From positions 1-35,023 of the forward strand of contig JAPSHL010000012.1 of NCBI GenBank assembly GCA_031179905.1: a stretch of 35,023 bases of DNA, in the 5' to 3' direction. Positions 33,599 to 34,749 of this stretch are shown here, one piece after another. Position 1 is the first letter of the stretch. Every line of letters begins with the position of its first letter. The notes beneath the pieces are model-generated. The model was not told the origin of the DNA and ran no database searches. It saw only the letters and a program-made list of their open reading frames with translations. The translations under genes were made by a program, and so were the position numbers. This DNA is from Bacillus sp. (in: firmicutes) (lineage in GTDB: Bacteria; Bacillota; Bacilli; Bacillales; Cytobacillaceae).

Positions 33599-33636
33599 AA
33601 AACAACTATGCGATATGCATGGTTGTTTTTTTTATT
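33599..33636 (+). terminator. Terminator of the tRNA operon
   Basis: AAAACAACTATGC pairs with GCATGGTTGTTTT (13 bp, one G-U) around GATAT, followed by a run of eight or more Ts. Confidence 0.9.
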
Positions 33637-33702
33637 CCAAGAGTAATACATTTCTATTACAATATTGCAACGACTTAAATTTATATAAGGAGTTATGATA
33701 AA

Positions 33703-33894
33703 ATGATAATAGGCGGATTCTGCAGTTAGAGTGGTCATTATATCTTTAAAAACAAAAAAAAGAGGCGAGAGGCAAGCGAAAAATTACCTCTCAACCACAA
33801 ATAAAGGAAAATGAAACTACATGTTATTAACGGATGAGAGTCCCAAAAGGTTTCATTTTATTGAATTTTCAACCCTCTATATTGGAGGGTTTTT
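33703..33894. other. Hairpin-rich non-coding element upstream of walR
   Basis: A 190-nt stretch with no convincing gene. It has three stem-loops. First, 33767-33775 with 33784-33792 (GAGAGGCAA/TTACCTCTC); on the minus strand it is followed by GCCTCTTTTTTT. Second, a perfect 10-bp stem 33808-33817 with 33850-33859 (AAAATGAAAC/GTTTCATTTT) closing a 32-nt loop. Third, 33871-33877 with 33885-33891 (AACCCTC/GAGGGTT) followed by TTTTT on the plus strand. It could be a small RNA, a leader attenuator of walR, or a pair of overlapping opposite transcripts. A tiny frame MIIGGFCS begins at 33703 with AAGGAG ten bases upstream. I do not recognise a known RNA family. Confidence 0.5.
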
Positions 33895-33895: not shown

Positions 33896-34038
33896 AAATA
33901 GCTAAATAAATGTAATGAAAAAGCGGAAGAATAGAAAAAAAGTGAATATATAAAATGAAAATGGTAAAGTAGAAGTAGATTTTATATTGGAAATAACAAC
34001 AATTTTAATAGATAGAACAATGAAGGAGATAAACGTGC

Positions 34039-34749
34039 ATGAATAAAAAGATACTCGTAGTAGATGATGAAAAACCGATTGCTGATATTCTGCAATTTAA
34101 TTTAAAGAAGGAGGGCTTTGAAGTACATTGTGCCTATGACGGCAATGCAGCATTAGAAATGGTAGATGAAGTGCAGCCAGATTTAGTTTTGCTTGATATT
34201 ATGCTTCCGCAGCGAGATGGAATGGAAGTTTGCCGTGAAATCCGTAAAAAATATGAGATGCCTATTATTATGCTGACAGCAAAGGATTCTGAAATAGATA
34301 AAGTACTTGGTCTTGAGCTTGGTGCCGACGATTACGTTACAAAGCCTTTCAGCACAAGAGAGCTTATTGCTCGTGTTAAAGCAAACTTAAGACGCCATCA
34401 GCAAGTTCCTGCAGCCGCAGAGGAAGAGAATGAATCAAATGAGATTGAAGTGGGATCTTTAATCATTCATCCGGATGCTTATATTGTTTCTAAGCGTGGG
34501 GAAATGATTGAGCTGACGCATCGTGAGTTTGAACTTCTGCATTATTTGGCTAAACATATCGGCCAGGTTATGACAAGAGAGCATTTGCTCCAAACTGTTT
34601 GGGGCTATGACTATTACGGTGACGTTCGTACAGTGGATGTGACGGTGAGAAGATTGAGAGAAAAAATAGAGGATAACCCAAGCCATCCAACCTGGATTGT
34701 AACGAGAAGAGGGGTAGGGTATTACTTGCGTAATCCTGAACAGGAGTAA
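34039..34749 (+). CDS. walR: Response regulator WalR
   Basis: The essential OmpR-family regulator of cell-wall hydrolases in low-G+C Gram-positives. The 236 residues comprise a receiver domain with acidic D9/D10, phospho-acceptor D53 in LLDIMLP, T80 and K102, and a winged-helix DNA-binding domain with [33 protein letters not shown] and [25 protein letters not shown] precedes the ATG. It leads the walRK operon; walK starts 9 nt downstream. Confidence 0.97.

Follow-up and report, generated by a model that had tools for sequence, protein, structure and literature searches.

In Bacillus subtilis, the gene yabE is opposed by S25, an antisense RNA transcribed by sigma-M/sigma-X (Eiamphungporn and Helmann 2009, as described in PMC8464778), and cwlO is opposed by S1326, an antisense RNA dependent on sigma-B (PMC8464778). 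The locus considered here lies between a tRNA cluster and walR near the end of a 35,023-nucleotide stretch of Bacillus sp. DNA (contig JAPSHL010000012.1; the whole stretch is referred to as the window), and S25 appears to be its nearest precedent. Both have an ECF-sigma promoter of the same type, antisense to the gene of a G5-domain cell-wall protein: yabE in the case of S25 and, for the element at this locus, a LysM-G5-M23 gene of sister genera, inside which the promoter lies. They differ in that S25 is about 1350 nt long and has a gene still in place on which it acts in cis, whereas the sRNA predicted in the genus of the window would have a length of about 60–75 nt, with its own terminator, and its target gene has gone. 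S1326 and the element can likewise be compared as stress-sigma antisense RNAs to a peptidoglycan endopeptidase gene; S1326, however, uses sigma-B and its target gene is present, whereas the element has an ECF-type promoter and its target has been lost.

FsrA and RoxS/RsaE are trans-acting sRNAs of the Bacillaceae that carry a pyrimidine-rich unpaired segment next to the terminator. The predicted sRNA resembles them in its shortness, its unpaired, UUUUCC-containing 5′ segment and its intrinsic terminator, but an Rfam search revealed no sequence relationship. The type I systems bsrG/SR4, txpA/RatA and fst share with the locus an arrangement of two convergent overlapping units; they differ from it in promoter type and origin, and the locus has no conserved toxin ORF.

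The end of the window comprises, in order, purA, four tRNA genes (Lys, Glu, Asp and Phe) and walR at position 34039, with a spacer of 444 bases between tRNA-Phe and walR. A first-pass annotation had described stem-loops in this spacer, set apart by a tRNA terminator upstream, and all of these features were found where it had placed them. The hairpin with a minus-strand T-tract maps to 33764–33796 (T-run 33761..33754), the plus-strand stem with a T-tract to 33871–33894, and the perfect 10-bp inverted repeat to AAAATGAAAC (33808–33817) and GTTTCATTTT (33850–33859). The annotation had also recognized no riboswitch, T-box or Bacillaceae-1 RNA, in agreement with an Rfam scan of the window in which only the four tRNAs matched; covariance models applied at gathering and relaxed thresholds gave chance-level matches only in the region. 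Comparisons within the genus were made on 13 species genomes, among them clade A (the window, G006, G002, G005 and G007) and clade B (G001 and G008–G012). The features of the spacer, each with the evidence for it, are as follows.

~33600–33633, plus strand: terminator of the tRNA-Lys-Glu-Asp-Phe cluster (sequence; conserved in aligned spacers).
33645..33704, plus strand: putative retained M23 promoter, with the repeat AATACA-N5-ATTACA (33645–33661) 51 bp upstream of an extended −10, TGATAAAAT (33696–33704) (spacing).
33754..33821, minus strand: predicted sRNA of ~68 nt (promoter-to-terminator interval; conservation of the 5′ segment).
33764..33796, minus strand: intrinsic terminator hairpin of the sRNA, T-tract 33761..33754 (consensus scan; kept in 11/11 elements with different sequence).
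33787..33860, no strand assigned: segment homologous to the stretch of the lost M23 gene around the LPxLKENETRLLDVRFSxNVS codons (hits of an nhmmer profile built from M23 genes).
33829..33832, minus strand: −10, CGTT, or CGTC in clade B and the M23 genes (CGT[C/T] at exactly 17 nt in 11/11, the spacer sequence having diverged).
33850..33855, minus strand: −35, TGAAAC, followed by the run CTTTT at 33849..33845 (invariant in 11/11 genus elements; antisense GTTTCA codons in M23 genes).
33871–33894, plus strand: intrinsic terminator (found in both clades and in G003 and G004, genomes without the sRNA).
33943–33970, plus strand: predicted walR-proximal promoter with an extended −10, TGGTAAAGT, at 33962–33970 (block upstream of walR conserved in the genus).

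The terminator of the tRNA cluster has an A-run on its 5′ side and may act in both directions. In the sister-genus genome G019 (L022, about 2785–2750, minus orientation), a truncated tRNA-Asp-like fragment, apparently a broken duplicate, precedes the complete tRNA-Asp. A likeness between the block upstream of walR and a site near an HPr-like gene was attributed to A-rich similarity and set aside.

Most of the structure in the spacer is better explained, on the sequence comparison, as a small minus-strand transcription unit (33855..33754), and this unit is probably a small RNA gene under an ECF sigma factor of the sigma-M/sigma-W group. The promoter reads TGAAAC-CTTTT-N12-CGTT, with a 17-nt spacer (33855..33829, minus strand). 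Each of the 11 elements recognized in the genus has TGAAAC, a T-run after the −35 and CGTN at 16–17 nt, as expected of an ECF promoter. The TTTT after the −35 is invariant among them, and the middle of the spacer varies while its length is fixed; a fixed TGAAAC, TTTT and 17-nt spacing around a variable spacer middle is a promoter signature. No other match to TGAAAC-N17-CGT[C/T] was found in the genus spacers. The −10 of clade A, the window included, is CGTT, which is less canonical than CGTC; the difference between clade A and clade B or the M23 genes possibly reflects a switch to another sigma factor or a weaker promoter.

With the +1 estimated 8 nt downstream of the −10 (33821 in the window), the predicted RNA has a length of about 59–74 nt across the 11 elements. 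Full-length folding predictions leave its 5′ segment unpaired (UAGUUUCAUUUUCC in the window). This segment, with the consensus AUG(U)AGUUUCAUUUUCC[C/U]UU, is near-identical in the 11 genomes, where it differs by one indel and C/T changes only, and so provides the conserved unpaired seed expected of a trans-acting sRNA. The terminator hairpin follows, then 6–8 T, completing, at the level of sequence, a short unit with its own promoter and intrinsic terminator. In 11/11 elements the hairpin is more stable as minus- than as plus-strand RNA, because G-U pairs of the minus strand are A-C mismatches on the plus strand. Its sequence is entirely different between clades A and B, and within clade B paired changes were seen by inspection in G011 relative to the others.

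In 11 of the 13 genus genomes the promoter, the length of its spacer, the 5′ segment and the terminator are all kept, amid an intergenic region that has otherwise diverged. The intergenic spacers of the genus are poorly alignable except in the element and in the promoter block of walR; in the aligned spacers of clade B, identity is 0.96–0.99 in the core and mostly 0.2–0.6 in the flanks. The two genomes without the element, G003 and G004, are nested inside the genus in a walRK tree (support 0.81), and loss in that pair is for this reason the simplest reading. In both (L195, L196) the plus-strand terminator is kept, as is the direct repeat, which forms a perfect WalR-type box on the plus strand; the sequence between them is different.

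Folding by itself exceeds chance by no more than a modest margin: z was −1.97 for the plus strand and −1.59 for the minus strand, with 5/200 and 9/200 shuffles, respectively, folding equally well. The significance of the stem-loop region comes from the genus comparison, that is, from the conserved core and the kept minus-strand terminator, and not from folding. Conservation of the stems in relatives, which the first-pass annotation had made a test of its proposal, was borne out for the minus-strand terminator, present in 11/11 elements with altered sequence; the length of the 10-bp repeat, by contrast, is lineage-specific, and the long-range repeat of relatives has 6–8 bp. The 10-bp repeat overlaps the minus-strand ECF promoter and consists mainly of the −35 hexamer and its inverted copy, and its halves pre-existed in the peptidase gene as GAA-AC(T) and GTT-TCA codons. 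The H2 stem was considered as an RNA structure and rejected: it has an invariant core that overlaps the −35, and so lacks covariation support.

In nearly all sister genera, the interval between tRNA-Phe and walR is occupied by a LysM-G5-M23 peptidase gene of ~490 codons (domains from Pfam). The M23 orthologue is absent from all 13 genus genomes, in which only domain-level M23 paralogues occur elsewhere. Here, a nucleotide profile built with nhmmer from 30 LysM-G5-M23 genes was compared with the genus spacers, which it matched on the plus strand at the same columns (~550–625), with a best score of 19.7 bits. The window spacer scored 2.3 bits, the highest of 1500 shuffled spacers 0.3, and 8 of the 11 element-bearing spacers, the window included, scored above all 1500 shuffles. 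Two of the other three match the same profile columns more weakly, and one was identified by alignment with its clade-mates. Given that the matches share columns and strand, the element descends from the LPxLKENETRLLDVRFSxNVS codons, and on this profile evidence it is homologous to a stretch of the M23 gene found at the same locus in sister genera. Two further genera have no M23 gene between the tRNAs and walR (L174, G016; L183, G024) and no remnant of the ECF promoter.

The spacing of 51–52 bp between the direct repeat and the extended −10 is common to the genus and about 20 M23-bearing loci. With its T[A/T]TACA-type half sites, the repeat is of a form resembling WalR or PhoP boxes. Upstream of M23 in sister genera (L022, L172–L205), the direct repeat is of the TATACA-N5-GTTACA type, and the tRNA terminator there is often followed by a further box that is oppositely oriented (TGTAAY-N5-TGTAAY).

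Synonymous constraint was assessed in 49 non-redundant intact M23 genes by permuting synonymous codons within each gene. Of the 481 windows along the gene, the one with the codons homologous to the element ranks first for constraint (z 18.7, against a gene mean of 4.1 with sd 4.1), and the constrained bases, read on the opposite strand, are TGAAAC-N17-CGTC. The stretch is thus the most constrained because an ECF promoter lies antisense to it. The exact antisense TGAAAC-N17-CGTC occurs in 24/49 M23 genes, compared with a mean of 1.45 after synonymous shuffling (maximum 5 in 200), and at least one exact copy is present in 11/18 genera. The two hexamers tend to be gained or lost jointly, both being found in 23 genes, neither in 17 and one in 9 (Fisher p 1e-5), and the strongest codon associations among 694 tested codon-column pairs fall inside the element; kinship of the sequences makes such p-values optimistic and does not affect the within-gene ranking in the same way. 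No consistently placed antisense terminator was found in the intact M23 genes. A promoter antisense to a wall hydrolase gene, as in S25, is accordingly present in the sister genera; in the genome of the window there is no target gene opposite the RNA. In other families of the order, too, a pattern search returned sequences of similar form, while its controls matched almost nothing, and the motif CGTCTAATANACGAGTTTCATTTTC also occurs outside the family (L271–L282; families f11, f28 and f44 of the order). The −10 in f28 reads CTTC or CATC, which suggests promoter loss.

TGAAAC-N16/17-CGTCT has four matches in the genome of the window, a number that by itself proves nothing because the reversed-pattern control returns at least as many. 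Two of the four have a T-run, and these are informative. One, TGAAAC-N17-CGTCTA, lies antisense to a yabE homologue (DUF348-G5-3D, Pfam), between this homologue and an rnmV-like gene (L246:1501–1528; G000:C68:8681–8708), and seems to correspond to the S25 promoter of B. subtilis. The other, TGAAAC-N16-CGTCTA, is found ~310 nt upstream of an spx-like gene (L247:949–975, G000:C252); spx of B. subtilis has a sigma-M promoter, PM1 (PMC6057675). A further site, TGAAAC-N17-CGTA, precedes an ECF sigma gene. On the evidence of these three sites, ECF promoters of such form, with 16–17-nt spacing, exist in the organism. Six ECF-like sigma genes were matched in this genome, none above the SigM cut-off.

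The comparison as a whole supplies a promoter with its 17-nt spacer, an invariant 5′ segment, a terminator and descent from an antisense ECF promoter within the M23 endopeptidase gene that lay next to walR and was lost in the genus. Under a mechanism consistent with these features, envelope stress would lead an ECF sigma factor to transcribe the ~60–75-nt minus-strand RNA. In sister genera the antisense transcript would lower expression of the M23 peptidase, as S25 does on yabE, and such repression would match a logic in which wall-synthesis stress turns hydrolases down. In the genus, without the target gene, the shortened RNA would persist and act in trans, pairing via its unpaired 5′ end (UAGUUUCAUUUUCCUUUA), and a plus-strand RNA transcribed from the promoter that the peptidase gene left behind would be perfectly complementary to the sRNA and could be its partner or sponge. 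Two opposite RNAs at the locus are plausible because the promoter of the lost gene (33645–33704) and the plus-strand terminator remain. Two overlapping opposite transcripts, one of the two suggestions in the first-pass annotation, are the best reading of the region, now as a minus-strand ECF unit facing a retained plus-strand promoter and terminator. The annotation had overlooked that the conserved sequence is a minus-strand ECF-sigma promoter, derived from one that lay antisense within the lost peptidase gene. Trans action is favored most strongly by the 5′ segment, which is part of the predicted transcript and which, like the promoter, is invariant even though the cis target has vanished. 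It is opposed most strongly by the genome of the window, which contains no second perfect 14-nt complement to this segment, so any trans pairing would be imperfect; target searches for perfect complements gave only scattered matches outside the element. Alternatively, the relevant partner may be the plus-strand RNA of the same locus. The full account, in which an antisense promoter in an endopeptidase gene outlived its host, the enzyme gene was deleted throughout the genus, the antisense unit gained a compact terminator and became a stress-sigma trans-acting sRNA beside walRK, and the promoter of the enzyme came to drive a complementary partner RNA, is put forward tentatively, at a little under an even chance.

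It is unlikely that the element is instead a decaying relic, a leftover of the lost gene that is eroding slowly and resembles a promoter and a hairpin by accident. The segment is demonstrably a remnant of the M23 gene, the promoter of that gene and the plus-strand terminator are also left, and two species have lost the element; however, this piece is 96–99% identical across clade B, whereas the remainder of the gene has disappeared, the spacer length has stayed at 17, the terminator has been retained despite sequence change, and the surviving piece is exactly the one under synonymous constraint in intact genes. The functional strand could also be the plus strand, with a WalR- or PhoP-type regulated non-coding RNA running from the peptidase promoter to the plus-strand terminator (~190 nt in the window) and the minus-strand features secondary. 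The direct repeat conserved at 51–52 bp from the extended −10 and the conserved terminator are consistent with such an RNA, as is the retention of repeat and terminator in G003 and G004, which lack the minus-strand unit. It is nonetheless improbable: a minus-strand ECF promoter accounts base by base for the best-conserved part, and the hairpin, whose T-tract lies on the minus strand, is better folded as minus-strand RNA in 11/11 elements. The plus-strand interior, moreover, is poorly conserved outside the core.

The other suggestions of the first-pass annotation, an attenuated leader of walRK and a type I system, fared less well. A leader might be expected from a terminator placed 145 nt upstream of walR, but the conserved extended −10 promoter at 33943–33970 sits downstream of that terminator, between it and walR, and a conserved alternative antiterminator structure is absent; this reading is very unlikely. 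A type I toxin-antitoxin system, with a small toxin on the plus strand and an antitoxin RNA on the minus strand, has even less in its favor. The units are convergent and overlapping, and the plus strand has a short ORF start (AAAGGAAAATG); no conserved toxin ORF was found, however, since the ORF has 5–32 codons with frames and stops that differ among species, the context of its ATG derives from K-E-N-E codons that stood in frame in the peptidase gene, and a match to the fstAT antitoxin (E 3.7) is at chance level. A small-peptide reading (Shine-Dalgarno and ATG, MKL... ORF) was rejected on the same ground, neither frame nor length being conserved.

In summary, the locus is a predicted ECF-sigma sRNA gene that would have arisen from a promoter lying antisense within a cell-wall peptidase gene since lost. 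Antisense control like that of S25 is of a kind already known; what would be new is the evolutionary twist that the host gene has been lost. The finding points to a testable route of sRNA birth, from an antisense promoter through loss of the sense gene to an orphan sRNA, of which both states are present when the genus is set against its sister genera. If this is true, the transition from cis-antisense RNA to trans-acting sRNA would be directly observable. The walRK genes encode essential regulators of cell-wall hydrolysis, and the antisense promoter adds a predicted, widely conserved link between envelope-stress sigma factors and the peptidoglycan endopeptidase encoded next to them. Together with the precedent of S25 and yabE, it suggests that ECF-sigma antisense control of G5-domain wall enzymes may recur.
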